Shown here: piece by piece, positions 31,869 through 60,185 of the stretch
Position numbering within the stretch: position 1 is the stretch's first letter
Layout of the letters: every line of letters begins with the position of its first letter
NCBI GenBank assembly: GCA_002878375.1
Contig: NIRF01000002.1
Coordinates: 132,626 to 196,625 of the forward strand
Origin: Dictyoglomus sp. NZ13-RE01
GTDB taxonomy: Bacteria > Dictyoglomota > Dictyoglomia > Dictyoglomales > Dictyoglomaceae
DNA length: 64,000 nucleotides
Reading direction: 5' to 3'
Made by a program: the position numbers and the translations under genes
The notes under the pieces: model-generated
Seen by the model: the letters and a program-made list of their open reading frames with translations, nothing else
What the model was told of the DNA's origin: nothing
Database searches by the model: none

Positions 31869-31947
31869 TGATATTCGTCATTGTTTATAGCAAAAAAATT
31901 TGATAAACTCTTGTTTAGAAAAATACTTGATTAAGATGGGGGAGAAA

Positions 31948-32733
31948 ATGAGAATAAAACTAACTTATGAATCTTTAAATGGAAAGATTATTCTTCCCAA
32001 CCACTATAATTATTATCTTCAAAGCTTAATATACCAAACGTTCTCACCTGACCTTGCTGGAAAACTCCACGAAGAAGGTTTCCTATTAGGGAAAAGACCT
32101 TTCAAGCTTTTTACCTTCTCAAGAATATTAGAAAAGGGAAAGCCATCAAAAGATAAGAAATTCTTAATTTTCGATAGTAGAATAACCTTTTATTTTTCTT
32201 CTCCAAAGGAAGAAATTGTTGAAAATCTTGCAGAAAGATCCATAAGAGAAAGAGAATTTCATTTACTAAACAACAAGATATACTTAGCTCAAATAGAGAT
32301 AGTAACCTTGCCAAGAATCGAAGAAAAGATTGTTATAAAAGCTCTCTCCCCCATCACAGTTTATAGCACCATAAAGAAAGAGAACAATGAAACCCTCATT
32401 CACTACTATAAACCAATAGAAGAAGACTTTTCCAAGCTCATTGAGAAAAATGCCAAGAAAAAATACAAGCTAATATACCAAAAGGAACCTCCAGAAGATT
32501 CCTATCTACATATTAAGCCATTAAAGTTTTCTGTGAGCGAAAATCTTAAAATAATCCTATTTAAAAATACTCCCATTGAGGGTTATACAGGAATATATGA
32601 GATTTCAGGAACTCGCGAATTAATCCTATCTACCTATGAGGCAGGACTTGGCAACAAAAATTCTGAGGGCTTTGGTATGTGGGAAATTTGGAAAAAGAAA
32701 GAAAAGGAGGTGAGAGAATGCTTAAGGAAATAA
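31948..32733 (+). CDS. cas6: CRISPR endoribonuclease Cas6
   Basis: The 261-residue RAMP protein starts at the ATG at 31948 behind GGGGGAG. It has two ferredoxin-like halves (PNHYNYYLQSLIYQTF with a histidine near the N-terminus, and the C-terminal glycine-rich loop AGLGNKNSEGFGMWEIW). Cas6 cuts pre-crRNA inside each repeat, leaving the 8-nt ATTGAAAC handle in type I-B. First gene of the cas operon; it overlaps cas8b by 16 bases. Confidence 0.92.
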   Translation: MRIKLTYESLNGKIILPNHYNYYLQSLIYQTFSPDLAGKLHEEGFLLGKRPFKLFTFSRILEKGKPSKDKKFLIFDSRITFYFSSPKEEIVENLAERSIREREFHLLNNKIYLAQIEIVTLPRIEEKIVIKALSPITVYSTIKKENNETLIHYYKPIEEDFSKLIEKNAKKKYKLIYQKEPPEDSYLHIKPLKFSVSENLKIILFKNTPIEGYTGIYEISGTRELILSTYEAGLGNKNSEGFGMWEIWKKKEKEVRECLRK

Positions 32734-40529: not shown

Positions 40530-40668
40530 TTTCTGTCGACCTCCAATCCTGCAAAAAACCCCGGGGTACGACAGAAAATTAAAATCTCTAAATTTCCCTC
40601 TTTAAATCTAACAAATCTTGATGTATAATATAATCAAAATTGTAGATCTCCTATAAGGGTATTAATTT
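40530..40668 (+). promoter_or_regulatory. CRISPR leader (copy A) with promoter and degenerate first repeat
   Basis: The AT-rich stretch after cas2 holds a TATAAT at 40624-40629, so transcription should begin near 40636, almost at a degenerate repeat (40638-40668). That repeat matches the array consensus in its middle but has four substitutions in the first 12 bases and a disrupted 3' end (GGGTATTAAT instead of GGGATTGAAAC). A further partial copy, AAATTGTAGAT, occurs at 40670-40680. The leader is present a second time at 55924-56061. Confidence 0.8.
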
Positions 40669-40698
40669 TAAATTGTAGATTTTTTGCTATATTAACGG

Positions 40699-42462
40699 GT
40701 TTGTAGCTCGCCTATAAGGGATTGAAACACAATCACAGCAGATAGTGTGAACTACAGAAATAAGTTTGTAGCTCGCCTATAAGGGATTGAAACCTTATAT
40801 GAGTGCGGTTATTTAGTCTTTGAGGACGAGGTTTGTAGCTCGCCTATAAGGGATTGAAACTTTGTAAGGGGAGCAAATAGCTCCCCTTCTCTTTTAGGTT
40901 TGTAGCTCGCCTATAAGGGATTGAAACTACATATAAACCGAGCATAAAAACAAAAGTATTGAAGGTTTGTAGCTCGCCTATAAGGGATTGAAACAACTCT
41001 TCTCTTAACTTTTGAATTTCGTTAACCATACGTTTGTAGCTCGCCTATAAGGGATTGAAACGCTCTTCAATACTTTTCTCTAATTGGTAAGTTAGGAGTT
41101 TGTAGCTCGCCTATAAGGGATTGAAACAGGTAAGGCGTTTATTCTCGGCGATGGCGTAAAGAAGTTTGTAGCTCGCCTATAAGGGATTGAAACTATTTTT
41201 GGAAAATCTCAATCAGGGTCATACCAGCACGTTTGTAGCTCGCCTATAAGGGATTGAAACAAACAAAACGCCCCTGGAATGTATTTCGGAAAGCCCCAGT
41301 TTGTAGCTCGCCTATAAGGGATTGAAACAAAACTATGCTATCATAAAATTGAAAATAAAAATTGGTTTGTAGCTCGCCTATAAGGGATTGAAACAAATTT
41401 TAGAGGATGTAAGCCAAAAAGCACAAAATGTGTTTGTAGCTCGCCTATAAGGGATTGAAACTGTTGTTGGGGGGATTGGATTTTTCTTTGGGATTTTTGT
41501 TTGTAGCTCGCCTATAAGGGATTGAAACAATAAGCCCAATTGTCATACACAACCATTACAGGTTCGGTTTGTAGCTCGCCTATAAGGGATTGAAACTTCA
41601 CTTCTCTTCACCTCCTTTCTCCTCAGTCCTTTCGTTTGTAGCTCGCCTATAAGGGATTGAAACAATACTTCTCTTTTCTCTCGTAATATATGTAGAAGAG
41701 TTTGTAGCTCGCCTATAAGGGATTGAAACTATTCATTATATCAGACATAACATCAAAAGCAAACCCGTTTGTAGCTCGCCTATAAGGGATTGAAACGGAG
41801 AATCTTCCCTGTGTATGCAGAAGAAAATTCAGCGTTTGTAGCTCGCCTATAAGGGATTGAAACTCGAATACGAAGGAAGACGTTTCGGACGCTTGATAAT
41901 GTTTGTAGCTCGCCTATAAGGGATTGAAACTATTTTGGTCTTCTATACAGCATTCACTTATAAAGTCGTTTGTAGCTCGCCTATAAGGGATTGAAACGTA
42001 GAGAGAGAGATATGGGACAGGTGGTATCAGAAGGTTTGTAGCTCGCCTATAAGGGATTGAAACCTTCATATATTCCCCTCACTAACTCCTGAGTGTTTAG
42101 GTTTGTAGCTCGCCTATAAGGGATTGAAACTAAGAAGGTCGGGGCCTCTTGCGTGTTCAGTAGAGCGTTTGTAGCTCGCCTATAAGGGATTGAAACTAAG
42201 AGTGGTGAAGAAACTTCCTACAATTCCTGTGTGGTTTGTAGCTCGCCTATAAGGGATTGAAACTAAAATTGTAGACTAAAATTTGTTTAGGAGGTGTCAG
42301 TTTGTAGCTCGCCTATAAGGGATTGAAACTATTTCTGGAAAATATCTACTAACTTCATTTTTCCAAGTTTGTAGATCGCCTATAAGGGATTGAAACCAAA
42401 TAAATTGAATCTCAAAAAGTTTGAAGGTAATGGTTTGTAGCTCGCCTATAAGGGATTGAAAT
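40699..42462 (+). CRISPR. Type I-B CRISPR array, 27 repeats and 26 spacers
   Basis: The 30-base repeat reads GTTTGTAGCTCGCC then TATAAGGGATTGAAAC. First repeat 40699-40728, last 42433-42462; spacers are 35-38 bases, mostly 36-37. All repeats are identical except the last two: 42367-42396 has A for C at position 9, and 42433-42462 ends in T. The decayed distal end and the leader on the left show that transcription and acquisition run left to right. The ATTGAAAC end fits the Cas6 handle of type I-B. Spacer 3 contains a 9-bp hairpin; spacers 4 and 6 share 13 bases in opposite orientation. Confidence 0.98.
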
Positions 42463-53508: not shown

Positions 53509-55884
53509 CTATATTTCAAGCTCCAAATCTACACCATGATTATATGCATACTCTAATGCTTCAATCTGTTTATTCTTTAACATATCTTTGAAATATCCAC
53601 CTTTTTCCTGAAGACTTTCTACTCTCTCAATTACATCCATTGCTATACTAAATCGATCTATCTGATTTAGAATGGCAAGTTGAAGAGGAGTAGTTATTCC
53701 TCCTCTTCCTTTTAGGAAAGGTGCAAGATATCCTGCTTCAATTCCAATTTTTCTATTTTCTCTGTATCCCCTTACATGTAGATTTTTATGATTATTTCTC
53801 CTATAAGTTAATCTATGTATTAGCCATGGATATCCATGGAAGTTAAATATTATAGGCTTATCTTTAGTAAAATACGAGTCAAATTCTTTATCAGAAAGAC
53901 CATCAGGATGCTCTGTATTAGGTGTTAAAGTAAATAGATTTAATACATTTACAAACCTAATTCTAAGCTCAGGGAATAATTTCTTTAAAATTTTAACAGC
54001 ATAGATAGCCTCTTTAGTAGGAATATCACCACAACTTGCTATTACTACATCTGGATCCTTATCAGGATGGTTACTTGCAAAGTCCCATATTCCTATTCCT
54101 TTCATGGCATGCTTAAATGCCTCGTCAATACTCAAGTACTGAGGATGTTTTTGTTTATCCGCTACAATAATATTTATTCTATTTGTGGTTTGCAGTGAGT
54201 ACCATACAGTACAAAGTAAAGTATTTGCATCTGGTGGGAAATAAACTCTTACCACATTTGGCCACTTATCAACGATTGACGTAACAAAACCAGGGTCTTG
54301 ATGCGTAAAACCATTATGGTCTTGTCTCCAAACAACTGATGTAAGAAGGAGGTTAAGCGAAGATATGGGGGCTCTCCAGGGCACATCAGTAGATATATCT
54401 ATCCACTTTCCAAACTGATTTACCATTGATGATATTATAGGAGCAAAACCCTCATAAGTGTTTAGAAAACCATGCCTACCCGTAAGAATATAACCTTCTA
54501 ACCATCCCTCAAGTGTATGCTCCGAGAGCATCTCCATAGTTCTTCCAAAGGGACTAAGAAAACCTTCATCCTCATCTTCTGGTAGTATCTTTCCCATCCA
54601 TGCCTTTCCATGCTCAAAAACTGCATCAAGTCTATTCGATTTTGTTTCATCTGGTCCAAAAACTCTAAAATTCTCAGGATTTAAACTTATAGTTTCCTTC
54701 AAAAACACTCCTAAGGGACGCGTATTCTCCGCCATATCTTCTGTAGGATTGTTCACAACCACTGCAAAATTTTTAAGGTTTGGTAATTTTAGCTCTTTCC
54801 TCAATAAACCACCATTTGCATGCGGATTTGCACTCATTCTTTTTTCACCTTTTGGAGTTAGCTCTCTCAAATCTTCTCTTAATTTGCCATTCTTATCAAA
54901 AAGTTTTTCTGGCTCGTAACTTCTAAGCCAACTTTCAAGAATCTCGAGAGTTTTAGGATTTTCTTTTGCATCAGCAAAAGGTACCTGGTGGGCTCTCCAA
55001 TAACCTTCTATATAATGACCTCCAACTTTTCTGGGAGCAGTCCAACCCTTAGGAGTTCTAAGTATTATCATGGGATAGGAGGGTCTAAAAGGTTTATTAT
55101 TAGATCTTGCCTCATCCCAAATACTGAGAATCTTCTCAATACAATAATCCATAACCTCAGCCATCTTTTCATGTACTTCTAAAGGATCTTCTCCCTCTAC
55201 TATCTTAGGATCATAACCATACCCCTTAAATAAAGATATTAACTCTTCATTTTCAATCCTTGATAGAATTGTAGGGTTATTAATTTTGTAGCCATTGAGA
55301 AGTAGTACTGGAAGAACAGCTCCATCTCTTACAGGGTTCAAAAATTTGTTTGAGTGCCAAGCAGTAGCAAGTGGTCCAGTTTCCGCCTCGCCATCTCCTA
55401 CAACAGTAATGGCTATTAAATCTTTGTTGTCAAAAACTGCTCCATAGGCATGAGAGAAACTATACCCTAACTCTCCGCCCTCCTGAATTGAACCTGGAAG
55501 TTCAGGGGTACAATGGCTTCCAAGCCCTCCAGGGAAAGAAAAGGCTTTAAACAAATTTTTGAGCCCTTCCTCATCTTGACTAAATTGAGAATAAAGCTCG
55601 CTTATGGTACCCTCTAAGTAGGCAGGAGCTATAACTCCTGGAGCTCCATGTCCAGGTCCTGCAATGAATATACAATTCAAATCATATTTATTAATTACTC
55701 TATTCCCATGAGTATAGACAAACGAAAGCCCAGGACTTGCTCCCCAATGACCAAGAAGTCTTTCCTTAATATGCTCTGGTTTAAGAGGATTTTTTAAAAG
55801 AGGATTGTCCCTAAGATAAATCATACCTGCTGAAATATAACAACATGCTCTCCAAAACTCATTTAACTTTTCAATCATACCCAT
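53509..55884 (-). CDS. xfp: Xylulose-5-phosphate/fructose-6-phosphate phosphoketolase
   Basis: The 791-residue TPP enzyme has the phosphoketolase pattern: GHWGASPGLSFVYTHGNR near residue 46, GPGHGAPGVIAPAYLEGT, SFPGGLGSHCTPELPGSIQE, VGDGEAETGPLATAWHSNKF (TPP site), VWRQDHNGFTHQDPGF and YPWLIHRLTYRR. It splits xylulose-5-P or fructose-6-P with phosphate into acetyl-phosphate and an aldose phosphate. Length is the family's usual ~790. Its likely promoter (TTGGAG 55940-55935, 17 bases, TATTAT 55917-55912 on the minus strand) has its -35 inside a duplicated CRISPR leader. Confidence 0.95.
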   Translation of the reverse strand: MGMIEKLNEFWRACCYISAGMIYLRDNPLLKNPLKPEHIKERLLGHWGASPGLSFVYTHGNRVINKYDLNCIFIAGPGHGAPGVIAPAYLEGTISELYSQFSQDEEGLKNLFKAFSFPGGLGSHCTPELPGSIQEGGELGYSFSHAYGAVFDNKDLIAITVVGDGEAETGPLATAWHSNKFLNPVRDGAVLPVLLLNGYKINNPTILSRIENEELISLFKGYGYDPKIVEGEDPLEVHEKMAEVMDYCIEKILSIWDEARSNNKPFRPSYPMIILRTPKGWTAPRKVGGHYIEGYWRAHQVPFADAKENPKTLEILESWLRSYEPEKLFDKNGKLREDLRELTPKGEKRMSANPHANGGLLRKELKLPNLKNFAVVVNNPTEDMAENTRPLGVFLKETISLNPENFRVFGPDETKSNRLDAVFEHGKAWMGKILPEDEDEGFLSPFGRTMEMLSEHTLEGWLEGYILTGRHGFLNTYEGFAPIISSMVNQFGKWIDISTDVPWRAPISSLNLLLTSVVWRQDHNGFTHQDPGFVTSIVDKWPNVVRVYFPPDANTLLCTVWYSLQTTNRINIIVADKQKHPQYLSIDEAFKHAMKGIGIWDFASNHPDKDPDVVIASCGDIPTKEAIYAVKILKKLFPELRIRFVNVLNLFTLTPNTEHPDGLSDKEFDSYFTKDKPIIFNFHGYPWLIHRLTYRRNNHKNLHVRGYRENRKIGIEAGYLAPFLKGRGGITTPLQLAILNQIDRFSIAMDVIERVESLQEKGGYFKDMLKNKQIEALEYAYNHGVDLELEI

Positions 55885-55923: not shown

Positions 55924-56061
55924 TTTCTGTCGACCTCCAATCCTGCAAAAAACCCAGGGTACAATAAAAAATTAAAAATCTCTAAATTTACCTTTTTAAA
56001 TCTAACAAACCTTGATGTATAATATAATTAAAATTGTAGATCTCCTATAAGGGATTGAAAC
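55924..56061 (+). CRISPR. Duplicated CRISPR leader with a single solo repeat
   Basis: This stretch repeats the leader at 40530-40659 with about ten differences in ~130 positions by my reading, including the TATAAT (56018-56023), and ends in one 30-base repeat (56032-56061). The repeat differs from the array consensus at positions 1, 2, 9 and 12; the same four changes occur in the degenerate first repeat of the main locus. Its 3' part TATAAGGGATTGAAAC is intact. No second repeat follows. The promoter points to the sugar ABC operon at 56196. Confidence 0.85.
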
Positions 56062-56122
56062 AAACTTGAACTTTTAAAAATATTTATGTAGAGTTTTAAT
56101 TGCTAATATCATTTCACATCAT

Positions 56123-56148
56123 AAGGAGGTGATTAAAGGAGGTGATTA
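56123..56148 (+). repeat. Tandem 13-bp duplication with two orphan Shine-Dalgarno sites
   Basis: AAGGAGGTGATTA occurs twice head to tail (56123-56135, 56136-56148). Each copy is an extended complement of the 16S rRNA tail, 48-73 bases before the real start of the binding-protein gene, which has its own GAGGAGGTG site at 56180-56188. Confidence 0.75.
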
Positions 56149-56195
56149 AATAATATCCCCACAATATCACACAATTAATGAGGAGGTGAAGTATT

Positions 56196-57455
56196 GTGAA
56201 AAAATTTATTAGTACCCTACTTTTTATACTTTTTTCATTCTTGTTTTTAACCATTTCCTCTGGAGTAGAAAATAAAGTTGAAATATGGAGTTGGAGATCC
56301 CAAGATGCAGAAGTATGGGCAAGAGTAGAGAAAGAGTTAAATAAGAAGGGAATTCCTGTAAAAATAGATTTTAGACCTTTTGTCCCTACAGAATATGATG
56401 CAAAGGTAATGCTTGCACTACAAGGAGGTACGGGTCCTGATATTTTCTACTCAAGAAGACTCCCAGGTGGAAGAACCCAAGCACTTATTGATGCAGGTTT
56501 TATAGAACCACTGGATGGAAAAATTAAGTTTACATACTTTACTAGTAATACTTTAAAATATATAAGAAGTGGTGGGAAAACTTATGGAGTTCCGTTTGCA
56601 TTACAAGTTGTAGGAATCTTTTACAACAAAGATATATATGACAAATTTGGGCTTAAAGAACCCGAAACCTGGGATGAGCTCATTAATAATTGTGAAATTT
56701 TAAAGAAGAATGGAGTAACACCTTTCTTTATACCTGGAAAAGAAGCATGGACTTTAGCTATGCAGCATGCTATGTGCGGAGTAAGCGTACTTGGTCCAGA
56801 ATGGATCAGAGATCTAACTAATGGTAAAACCAATTTCTTAGATCCTAAATTTATCGATCTAAACAAGAGATTAAATGATTTAAAGAAATATTATCAAGAT
56901 GGATTCTTAGCAAATTCTACTACTGATCAAGATTCTGCTTTTGCTTTTGGGCAAGCAGCTATGGTATTCTATGGTATATGGGGACTTCAAACTTGGAGGC
57001 AATTAAACCCCAAGATCAATGTAGGATACTTTATGGTTCCACCTCTTACAAAAGATAGAAAACCATATGCATATGTGTATATGGATGGTGCCTTTTCTTT
57101 AGTAAAGGGAGCTAAAAATAGAGATATGGCTTTAAAGGTTTTAGAATTTACAGCAACCCCAGATTTTGGAACTATTTTTTCTAACATCACATATAACATT
57201 CCAGCAGTTCTTGGAGCTAAAATACCTCAAGATCCTTTATTATTAGAGGTATTAGAAGTATCTAAGAAGCATGCTTCTCCATATGTATACTGGGTTGGAT
57301 CTGTATTTGTAACTCAGAAGCCATCTCTATATGATGATATTTTAGCCCCAGGAATGCAAGCAATGTATGCGGGGAAAATAACTCCCGAAGAATTAGCCCA
57401 AAATGCTCAAAATGGTATTTCTCAATGGTATAAACCTTTAATGAAGAAAAGATAA
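56196..57455 (+). CDS. Sugar ABC transporter substrate-binding protein (family 1)
   Basis: The 419-residue protein has a signal peptide (ISTLLFILFSFLFLTISSG), then VEIWSWRSQDAEVWARVEKE, ALQGGTGPDIFYSRR, TYGVPFALQVVGIFYNKDIYD and AMVFYGIWG, the usual family 1 pattern. Translation starts at GTG (56196) behind GAGGAGGTG. First gene of an operon with two permeases and a ribokinase-type enzyme, so a pentose or related sugar is plausible. Its upstream region is the duplicated CRISPR leader with a solo repeat. Confidence 0.9.
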   Translation: MKKFISTLLFILFSFLFLTISSGVENKVEIWSWRSQDAEVWARVEKELNKKGIPVKIDFRPFVPTEYDAKVMLALQGGTGPDIFYSRRLPGGRTQALIDAGFIEPLDGKIKFTYFTSNTLKYIRSGGKTYGVPFALQVVGIFYNKDIYDKFGLKEPETWDELINNCEILKKNGVTPFFIPGKEAWTLAMQHAMCGVSVLGPEWIRDLTNGKTNFLDPKFIDLNKRLNDLKKYYQDGFLANSTTDQDSAFAFGQAAMVFYGIWGLQTWRQLNPKINVGYFMVPPLTKDRKPYAYVYMDGAFSLVKGAKNRDMALKVLEFTATPDFGTIFSNITYNIPAVLGAKIPQDPLLLEVLEVSKKHASPYVYWVGSVFVTQKPSLYDDILAPGMQAMYAGKITPEELAQNAQNGISQWYKPLMKKR

Positions 57456-57457
57456 CA

Positions 57458-57488
57458 AAAAGCCCCCTCCTTTTGTGAGGGGGCTTTT
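57458..57488 (+). terminator. Strong hairpin between binding-protein and permease genes
   Basis: AAAAGCCCCCTC (57458-57469) and GAGGGGGCTTTT (57477-57488) form a perfect 12-bp stem with loop CTTTTGT and a TTTTATT tail. It looks like a true intrinsic terminator, 2 bases after the binding-protein stop, allowing only partial readthrough into the permeases. Confidence 0.85.
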
Positions 57489-57507
57489 ATTAGGGGGATA
57501 TAAAAAT

Positions 57508-58401
57508 ATGAAAATCAAATGGTATAACCTTTTATTATTTATTTCACCAGCCTTCATTCTTTATACTATTTTCGTAATTTATCCATTTATTTCAAGTATT
57601 TACCTAAGCTTTTTTAGTTGGGTTGGTGTTGGGGCAAAAAAATATGTAGGGCTTAAAAATTTTTATGATACGCTTTTTGGATCTTTTAAAGAGGAGTTTT
57701 TCAATGCTTTATGGCATAATATCTACTTTTTTATTGTAGTTTCTATTGTTGAGGTTTCTCTTGGTTTCATTGTTGCATTAGGTTTAGCAACTCAAATAAA
57801 GGGATATCATATATTTAGAAGTATTATATATATTCCTAATGTAATTTCTATGGTTCTTGTAGGATTTATATGGGGATTAATACTTAATCCTCAAATTGGA
57901 TTAATCAATCAAATCTTGAAAGCAATTGGATTAGGACATTTTGCAAAAGCATGGCTTGGCGATCCAAATTTTGCTTTTAATACTATTATTGCAGTCAATA
58001 TATGGAGACATTTAGGTTTCTACGTTTTAGTTATGTTAGCTGCTATAATAAATATTCAACCTGATTTTATTGAAGCAGCATATATTGATGGAGCAAATAA
58101 CTGGAATGTAATTAAAAACATTATTATCCCACTAACTATACCTACAGCACAAACTTTAATACTCTTATTATTCATATGGTCCTTTAGTGTTTTTGAACTT
58201 ATATATGCTTTGGAAGGAGTACAAGCAGGACCATTTAGAAGTACAGATGTTTTGGGAACTCTTTTTTATAGGACAGCTTTTGGAGGATTAGGAAGTGCAA
58301 GAATGGATTTAGGCTTAGGTGCAGCAATTGTAACACTAATGTTCTTAATAATTCTTCCTGTTTCCTTTTTATATATTCGTTTAGTAGAAAGGAGAAGGTA
58401 A
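57508..58401 (+). CDS. CUT1 sugar ABC transporter permease (MalF-like)
   Basis: Counting from the ATG at 57508, the protein has 297 residues, six membrane segments and the EAA loop EAAYIDGANNWNVIKNIIIP. AGGGGG lies 10 bases upstream; an in-frame start at 57475 would lie inside the terminator hairpin and is rejected. Coupled with the MalG-like gene 3 bases downstream. Confidence 0.9.
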   Translation: MKIKWYNLLLFISPAFILYTIFVIYPFISSIYLSFFSWVGVGAKKYVGLKNFYDTLFGSFKEEFFNALWHNIYFFIVVSIVEVSLGFIVALGLATQIKGYHIFRSIIYIPNVISMVLVGFIWGLILNPQIGLINQILKAIGLGHFAKAWLGDPNFAFNTIIAVNIWRHLGFYVLVMLAAIINIQPDFIEAAYIDGANNWNVIKNIIIPLTIPTAQTLILLLFIWSFSVFELIYALEGVQAGPFRSTDVLGTLFYRTAFGGLGSARMDLGLGAAIVTLMFLIILPVSFLYIRLVERRR

Positions 58402-58404
58402 AAG

Positions 58405-59232
58405 ATGCTAAAATTAGGTACTAAATCCAAAGTAATTGTATTTTCTCTTTTTACAATTTATTCTATTATAATTATTGTTCCTTTTTTAAATATTGTTATG
58501 AATTCTTTCAAGAGTCTTTCAGAGATATTTTTGACTCCATTTTCTCTCCCAAAACAACTAAGATGGGAAAATTATGTAGAAGCGTGGACTAAGGCAAACT
58601 TAGGAGTAGGCTATCTCAATAGTTTTTTCATTTCAGTTTTTTCTGTAATTGGTATTTTAATTATTTCTTCTATGATGGCTTATATTCTTTCTCGTTATAG
58701 ATTTCCATTTAGGAAAATTTTATATTTATATGTAATAGCAGGACTTGCTTTTCCAGCTCGTTTAGCTATTATACCAATATTCATTATGCTTAGAGATGTA
58801 GGGCTTTTGAATTCTCGCCTTGGTTTAATACTTCTATATATGGGAACAGGAGTGCCTTTTTCTGTATTTCTTCTTAAGAACTTCTTAGATGATGTACCTA
58901 TAGAATTGGAAGAGTCTGCACAAATTGATGGAGCTTCGCCTTGGACAATTTTTAGGAAAATTGATCTACCCCTCATAAAGCCTGCTCTTGTTGTAGTCGC
59001 TATTGTAAATTTTGTATCTGTATGGAATGACTTCTTCTTCCCTCTTATTCTGATAAGCGATCGTTCTAAAGAAACTATCCCCTTAGCAGTATCTGTTTTC
59101 TACGGTGAATATGCCCATCAATGGCATTTATTATCAACTGCATTATGGCTTGCTGTTGTTCCTGTTATGATTATTTATTCTATAATGTCAAGAGAGTTTA
59201 TTTCTGGAATGACCCAAGGAGCAATAAAATAA
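58405..59232 (+). CDS. CUT1 sugar ABC transporter permease (MalG-like)
   Basis: The 275-residue permease has six hydrophobic segments and the EAA loop EESAQIDGASPWTIFRKIDLP. It lies between the MalF-like gene and the ribokinase-type gene. No ATPase gene belongs to the operon. Confidence 0.9.
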   Translation: MLKLGTKSKVIVFSLFTIYSIIIIVPFLNIVMNSFKSLSEIFLTPFSLPKQLRWENYVEAWTKANLGVGYLNSFFISVFSVIGILIISSMMAYILSRYRFPFRKILYLYVIAGLAFPARLAIIPIFIMLRDVGLLNSRLGLILLYMGTGVPFSVFLLKNFLDDVPIELEESAQIDGASPWTIFRKIDLPLIKPALVVVAIVNFVSVWNDFFFPLILISDRSKETIPLAVSVFYGEYAHQWHLLSTALWLAVVPVMIIYSIMSREFISGMTQGAIK

Positions 59233-59246
59233 AGAGAGGTGACAAA

Positions 59247-60185
59247 ATGCGTACTAAGGTTGTAATTATAGGGAGCTTCAATATTGATATGGTTTCAAAA
59301 GCCCCTCATTTACCAAGACCGGGAGAAACTGTTTTAGGTGGTCCTTTCGTTATGGTCCCAGGAGGAAAGGGATCAAATCAAGCAATATGTGCCTCAAGAT
59401 TAGGAGCAGAAGTTTATTTTGTGGGATGTGTAGGAAATGATACTTTTGGAGAAATAGCAAAGAATAATTTTAAAAGAGAAAGAATCAATGTAGATTATTT
59501 AGAGGTTTCTTCAGAGACACATACAGGTGTTGCTCTTATAGTTGTTGATGAAAAGAGTGGAGAAAACATGATTGTAGTTGCCCCTGGAGCAAATATGAAA
59601 GTTACGAAAAAAACTATAGATAATGCAATAGAAATTATTAAAGATGCAGATGTTATCCTAACTCAATTCGAAATACCAATCGAAACTGTGGAATATGTTG
59701 TTAAAGTTGTAAAAAACATAAAAAAACCAAAGTTAATTTTAAATCCTGCCCCAGCAAGAGAAGTAAACCCACATATATGGGAAGATATAGATTTAATAAC
59801 TCCAAATAGAAGTGAATTAGAAGCAATTAGCGGGATAACGATAGAATCAAGAGACGATATTGAAAGAGCAGTAGAAAAAGTGATATCTCTTGGAGTAAAG
59901 AATGTAGTAGTAACTCTTGGAAAAGAGGGAGCGCTCGTTGTTAACAAAGAAAAATCTATATATGTTCCGTCCTTTAAAGTAGATGCAGTAGATACTACAG
60001 GAGCAGGAGATGCTTTTAATGGGGGATTAGCTGTAGCTCTTGCAGAAGGAAAAGACTTAGAGGAGGCAGTATATTTTGCCAATGCAGTAGCTGGCTTAAA
60101 AGTGAAAAGACTTGGGGCCTCCTCTATGCCATATAGAGAAGAAGTAGAAAATTTCTTAAAGGAAACTGGTGAGGCTCTTTTTTAA
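59247..60185 (+). CDS. rbsK: Ribokinase-family (PfkB) sugar kinase
   Basis: The 312-residue kinase begins VVIIGSFNIDMVSKAPHLPR and has PGGKGSNQAICASRLG (substrate lid), NPAPAREVNPHIWEDIDLIT and the anion-hole motif DTTGAGDAFNGGLAVAL with the catalytic aspartate, all typical of RbsK. It would phosphorylate ribose or a related sugar brought in by the adjacent transporter. The ATG at 59247 follows GAGAGGTGAC; an earlier in-frame ATG at 59121 lies inside the permease gene. It converges with the next operon, one base apart. Confidence 0.88.
   Translation: MRTKVVIIGSFNIDMVSKAPHLPRPGETVLGGPFVMVPGGKGSNQAICASRLGAEVYFVGCVGNDTFGEIAKNNFKRERINVDYLEVSSETHTGVALIVVDEKSGENMIVVAPGANMKVTKKTIDNAIEIIKDADVILTQFEIPIETVEYVVKVVKNIKKPKLILNPAPAREVNPHIWEDIDLITPNRSELEAISGITIESRDDIERAVEKVISLGVKNVVVTLGKEGALVVNKEKSIYVPSFKVDAVDTTGAGDAFNGGLAVALAEGKDLEEAVYFANAVAGLKVKRLGASSMPYREEVENFLKETGEALF

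Follow-up and report, generated by a model that had tools for sequence, protein, structure and literature searches.

A solitary CRISPR leader with a chimeric repeat, probably left by a collapsed array, upstream of a sugar-transport operon in Dictyoglomus sp. NZ13-RE01

Between the divergent xfp gene and an ABC sugar operon of Dictyoglomus sp. NZ13-RE01 lies a CRISPR leader that ends in one repeat and heads no array (positions 55924–56061, plus strand, of the 64 000-nucleotide stretch analysed here, hereafter the window). Sequence comparison suggests that this element is likely to be what remains of a fourth, collapsed CRISPR locus of type I-B, and that its surviving promoter probably starts the operon transcript.

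Results

A whole-genome search returned four copies of the leader. Three head CRISPR arrays, for which core matching counts 27, 10 and 32 repeats, and the copy at 55924–56061 is the fourth. It is 88–91% identical to the three array leaders, with E values down to 3e-48, the best being obtained with the leader of the main array (40530–40698, plus strand), which is intact and is followed by the first true repeat at 40699. The other two array-heading copies are at G000:C5:92043 and G000:C2:80464(-). In a pairwise alignment, 55924–56053 pairs with 40530–40659 (offset 15394), and about nine change events separate the two when gaps are allowed, which bears out the proposal of the first-pass annotation that a CRISPR leader had been copied 15.4 kb away. 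The cas operon adjoining the main array is of type I-B (cas6, cas8b, cas7, cas5, cas3, cas4, cas1 and cas2); its Cas6 (31900–32733, plus strand; PADLOC Cas6b, E = 6.7e-72) is the candidate cutter of the solo repeat. We also found, as had been claimed, that a single repeat with an intact 3′ half closes the second leader: its last 18 bases are those of the array repeat and no array stands behind it. The best candidate for a further repeat downstream matches at only 15 of 30 positions. No spacer or trailer remnant was detected above chance behind the solo repeat, either with the three array ends of the genome, in the downstream repeat scan or in the family search. The non-CRISPR stretch from the repeat to the operon (56062–56195, plus strand), the putative 5′ UTR, has no good match elsewhere in the family.

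The solo repeat had been said to share four variant positions with a ‘degenerate first repeat’ of the main locus. The sharing holds, at positions 1, 2, 9 and 12, and the label of a decayed repeat does not. A repeat-like box, AAAATTGTAGNNNNCCTATNAGGG, has an exact match in each of the ten array leaders that were found, in five genomes of the family (three leaders in this genome, one in G001 and two each in G002, G003 and G004), and a reversed control of the pattern gave no matches. From the start of the box to that of the first true repeat the distance is 61 or 62 nt in each of the ten. Its 3′ end has decayed everywhere, to TATTAATT, AATTAATT, AGTAAATT, TATATTTT, TAGTTAAT or TATTAAAA, and ATTGAAAC follows it in none of the ten. 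Because it recurs in array leaders across the family, the supposed first repeat is, judging from these sequences, a conserved repeat-like leader element rather than an array repeat decayed at a single locus; it is possibly an element for spacer uptake. In array leaders the box was recorded at 40636–40659 in the window and at loci L017, L077, L080, L098, L101, L104 and L106. A further candidate in G003, at 755281, lies inside an open reading frame and was taken as chance.

In the solo leader the box reads AAAATTGTAGATCTCCTATAAGGG (56030–56053, plus strand), an exact fit to AAAATTGTAGNNNNCCTATNAGGG, and runs into the solo repeat, AATTGTAGATCTCCTATAAGGGATTGAAAC (56032–56061, plus strand, 30 nt). 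All four bases at which this repeat differs from the array repeat agree with the main-leader box (from 40638 on), and the predicted fold of the solo repeat differs from that of the array repeat. A box joined to an intact ATTGAAAC handle is found at the solo copy only, and this copy alone, compared with the ten array leaders, lacks both repeat 1 and the remainder of the leader end. The solo repeat is thus best read, from its sequence, as a chimera in which the leader box has recombined with the ATTGAAAC end of a true repeat inside the stretch common to both, CCTATAAGGG. A crossover in CCTATAAGGG is the simplest route; by point mutation, the exact handle could have been regained only through several coincidental changes. 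One crossover accounts for all of the differences at the end of the solo leader; against a collapse counts the shortness of the homology used, 10 bp.

Beyond its junction, the solo leader carries nine private change events in 130 bases relative to the three array leaders of the genome (counted by eye on the gapped alignment; a column-wise count of 14 is inflated by ungapped columns). These changes are unevenly spread. The leader contains a dyad, TTTCTGTCG...CGACAGAAA, with 12-nt arms that are 92% complementary in the main leader. In the solo copy the left part of this region, TTTCTGTCGACCTCCAATCCTGCAAAAAACCC (55924–55955, plus strand), is unchanged from the main leader and its left arm is intact, whereas six of the nine private changes fall within 18 bases of the right part (55956–55974, plus strand; CGACAG to CAATAA) and destroy the right arm (p of about 0.012 under random placement). 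The GACAG core, found in all ten array leaders, is absent from the solo copy. Another change, at 56010, sits between the two promoter-like hexamers (55995–56000 and 56018–56023). The decay pattern fits, as far as the sequences allow, a dyad released from constraint and a promoter segment that was retained; the solo copy is young enough for its promoter to need no selection.

Several observations on the dyad were made in passing. The conserved form at 40530–40577 in the window reads TTTCTGTCGACC...GGGGTACGACAGAAA. In G019, which belongs to another family, a sequence similar to the dyad lies beside a GTTTCAATTCC repeat (L014). An isolated and slightly changed dyad in G004 (L082, G004:C1:194306), with a repeat-like GTTTGTATCATACTTATGAGGATTTGAAGAT shortly before it and no array, is probably another CRISPR relic.

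The leader also retains a promoter-like site, TTTAAA-17-TATAAT (55995–56023, plus strand). The TATAAT at 56018–56023 pointed out in the first pass was found, with TTTAAA 17 bases upstream and a 10/12 match; the same site stands at 40601–40629 in the main leader, and TATAATATAAT is identical in all four leaders of the genome. It is the best plus-strand promoter-like site between xfp and the operon, and the segment that holds it is intact and points at the ABC operon, as had been proposed, with no predicted terminator between the solo repeat and the operon. The leader promoter is perhaps not needed by the operon, since a second, weaker site (9/12) lies between the repeat and the operon, after the start of the repeat handle. 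The region holds three promoter-like sites where shuffles give 2.3, no denser than shuffled sequence, and the motif alone therefore proves nothing. It is plausible from this arrangement that the ABC operon captured the putative promoter of the leader. On the other strand, the suggestion that the xfp promoter takes its −35 from the leader found no support: the site TCGACA-16-CATATT scores only 9/12, within chance. The motif matches that would mark a bidirectional metabolic promoter occur at chance density. The xfp promoter must nevertheless lie in or near the leader, because only 39 bases separate the xfp start from it. We also observed AGGAGGTGATTAAA in tandem at 56122–56151, before the solute-binding protein gene, which gives duplicate ribosome-binding-like sites.

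On the plus strand, the operon begins with a solute-binding protein (56196–57455; SBP_bac_1, E = 3.4e-33; 87% identical in G001), followed by two ABC permeases and a PfkB-family sugar kinase (57475–60185; BPD_transp_1 twice, PfkB with E = 7.8e-80). The kinase gene (59121–60185) adjoins the permeases here, and the transporter genes of G001 have no kinase beside them. On the minus strand, xfp encodes a phosphoketolase (53509–55884; XFP_N, XFP and XFP_C; 86–92% identical in relatives). In the selected stretches of relatives’ genomes used to compare gene order, neither a leader nor a full array was found between xfp and the operon. In G001 to G005, xfp lies directly behind a gene of about 600 amino acids, a relative of which is on another contig of the present genome, without xfp, and homology with relatives upstream of xfp ends near the xfp start. 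The transporter genes of G001 share 78% DNA identity with ours, with similarity from 56177 on only. When this gap was compared in relatives, as the first-pass annotation had advised, the leader proved to be absent upstream of the G001 operon, where an unrelated region carries its own promoter-like sites; the leader therefore appears to be peculiar to the present lineage. Transporter genes in another setting without the leader were seen in one species among the relatives compared. Since relatives carry xfp and the transporter genes in other settings, the leader site is a synteny break on both sides, and it is possible that recombination between CRISPR loci brought the leader to this break in gene order.

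Discussion

Spacer deletion through recombination between repeats, and the full collapse of an array to one repeat, have been described (PMC8047081), as have leaders that outlast degraded CRISPR systems (PMC2886076). The marks of such a collapse were found here: a leader homologous to those of intact arrays, a lone repeat and a trace of recombination at the junction. We propose that the repeat-like box of the leader recombined with a true array repeat within the common CCTATAAGGG. This crossover would have deleted the array, the last ~40 leader bases and repeat 1, and left the leader with a chimeric repeat. The usual leader–repeat integration site would have been lost in the same event, which fits the failure of the locus to regrow. 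The promoter-like segment would have survived about 165 bases upstream of the ABC sugar operon and facing it; the operon transcript would probably begin near 56030 and carry the repeat at its 5′ end. This RNA may or may not be a Cas6 substrate; if it is, cleavage is likely to do no more than shorten the 5′ UTR.

Could the locus instead be newborn, a leader copied here with a single repeat waiting for its first spacer? A leader with one repeat suffices for uptake in some systems (PMC8047081), but the solo copy lacks the leader end that all ten array leaders conserve, has a broken dyad arm and carries a chimeric repeat. An active integration site would have a true repeat preceded by an intact dyad and a complete leader end; the solo copy shows no such arrangement, and we consider a newborn locus very improbable. 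An assembly error that joined a leader to unrelated sequence might be feared in a draft assembly split into 34 contigs in which leaders recur, and seems extremely improbable: the solo leader is inside a 196-kb contig and has private changes of its own, the last of which, at 56029, lies so near the inferred crossover stretch (about 20 bases before it) that one read would span the junction. A phage origin of the solo element was dropped, as no phage record matched it.

Other readings give the element a present function. Selection might keep the leader as the operon promoter, with cleavage by Cas6 tying the 5′ end and stability of the mRNA to CRISPR activity. The promoter-like segment is indeed nearly unchanged while a dyad arm decays, cas6 is present in the genome and, with its last 18 nt those of the array repeat, the solo repeat could be cleaved by Cas6. 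The low divergence may, however, just mean that the copy is recent; the repeat departs from the array repeat at positions 1, 2, 9 and 12 and in its predicted fold, and the arrangement occurs in no other genome compared. Such a captured regulatory element is in our view unlikely, and the specific form in which the leader promoter runs the sugar-transport operon and Cas6 cuts the chimeric repeat at the mRNA 5′ end, coupling operon expression to CRISPR activity, is distinctly unlikely. For the proposed crRNA-like RNA no positive evidence was obtained: a second repeat is lacking, and no other place in the genome matches the 32 bases after the handle at up to three mismatches. The Cas6-controlled or crRNA-like switch suggested for the leader is thus possible but unsupported. 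The same observations bear on a CreA-like guide, an RNA with the ATTGAAAC handle and a guide that would send Cascade to a chromosomal promoter. Type I-B systems do include creA genes with a single repeat (PMC8501985). Here, though, neither a second repeat or pseudo-repeat nor a terminator was found behind the putative guide. Its 32 nt have no target genome-wide with up to three mismatches, and 12-nt seed-like matches within the window are fewer than chance, on a search that weaker matches of the kind known for creA could escape. No small toxin RNA was recognised in a look that was not systematic. Two-repeat creA genes, moreover, come without a leader (PMC8501985), and one is present here. We regard a CreA-like guide as highly improbable, and retain the collapse of an array as the likely origin of the element.

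Compared with known systems, the remnant resembles collapsed CRISPR arrays (PMC8047081) in that the leader is kept, the spacers are gone, one repeat remains and short repeat homology is the likely crossover. It differs from them in that the crossover would have used the repeat-like box of the leader, yielding a chimeric repeat and removing the integration site, and in that a promoter-like segment faces an operon. In the degraded loci of Escherichia and Salmonella (PMC2886076), leaders likewise persist and single-repeat loci have been counted; the present genome differs in that its cas genes and remaining arrays are intact and in that gene order breaks at the remnant. The creA genes of CreTA modules (PMC8501985, PMC9458426) are also ectopic repeat-derived sequences outside arrays with the handle part conserved; the solo element, by contrast, has a leader and has no guide match, second repeat or recognised toxin. 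Viral solitary repeat units and RNA anti-CRISPRs (PMC8616872; PMC10651486) share with it a single CRISPR repeat outside an array, whereas the present one is chromosomal, has a leader and lies beside metabolic genes.

The element is real, and is likely to be the remnant of a collapsed array with a chimeric repeat, the promoter of which probably reads into the sugar operon. As a natural case, it would show that an array can collapse by way of a repeat-like box in its own leader, losing at once its spacers and the usual site of regrowth and freeing a promoter for capture by neighbouring genes. The fixed distance of the box from repeat 1 in ten array leaders of five genomes makes it a testable leader element. 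If it is true that the operon runs from the leader promoter, this would clearly exemplify the reuse of CRISPR DNA in metabolic gene expression.
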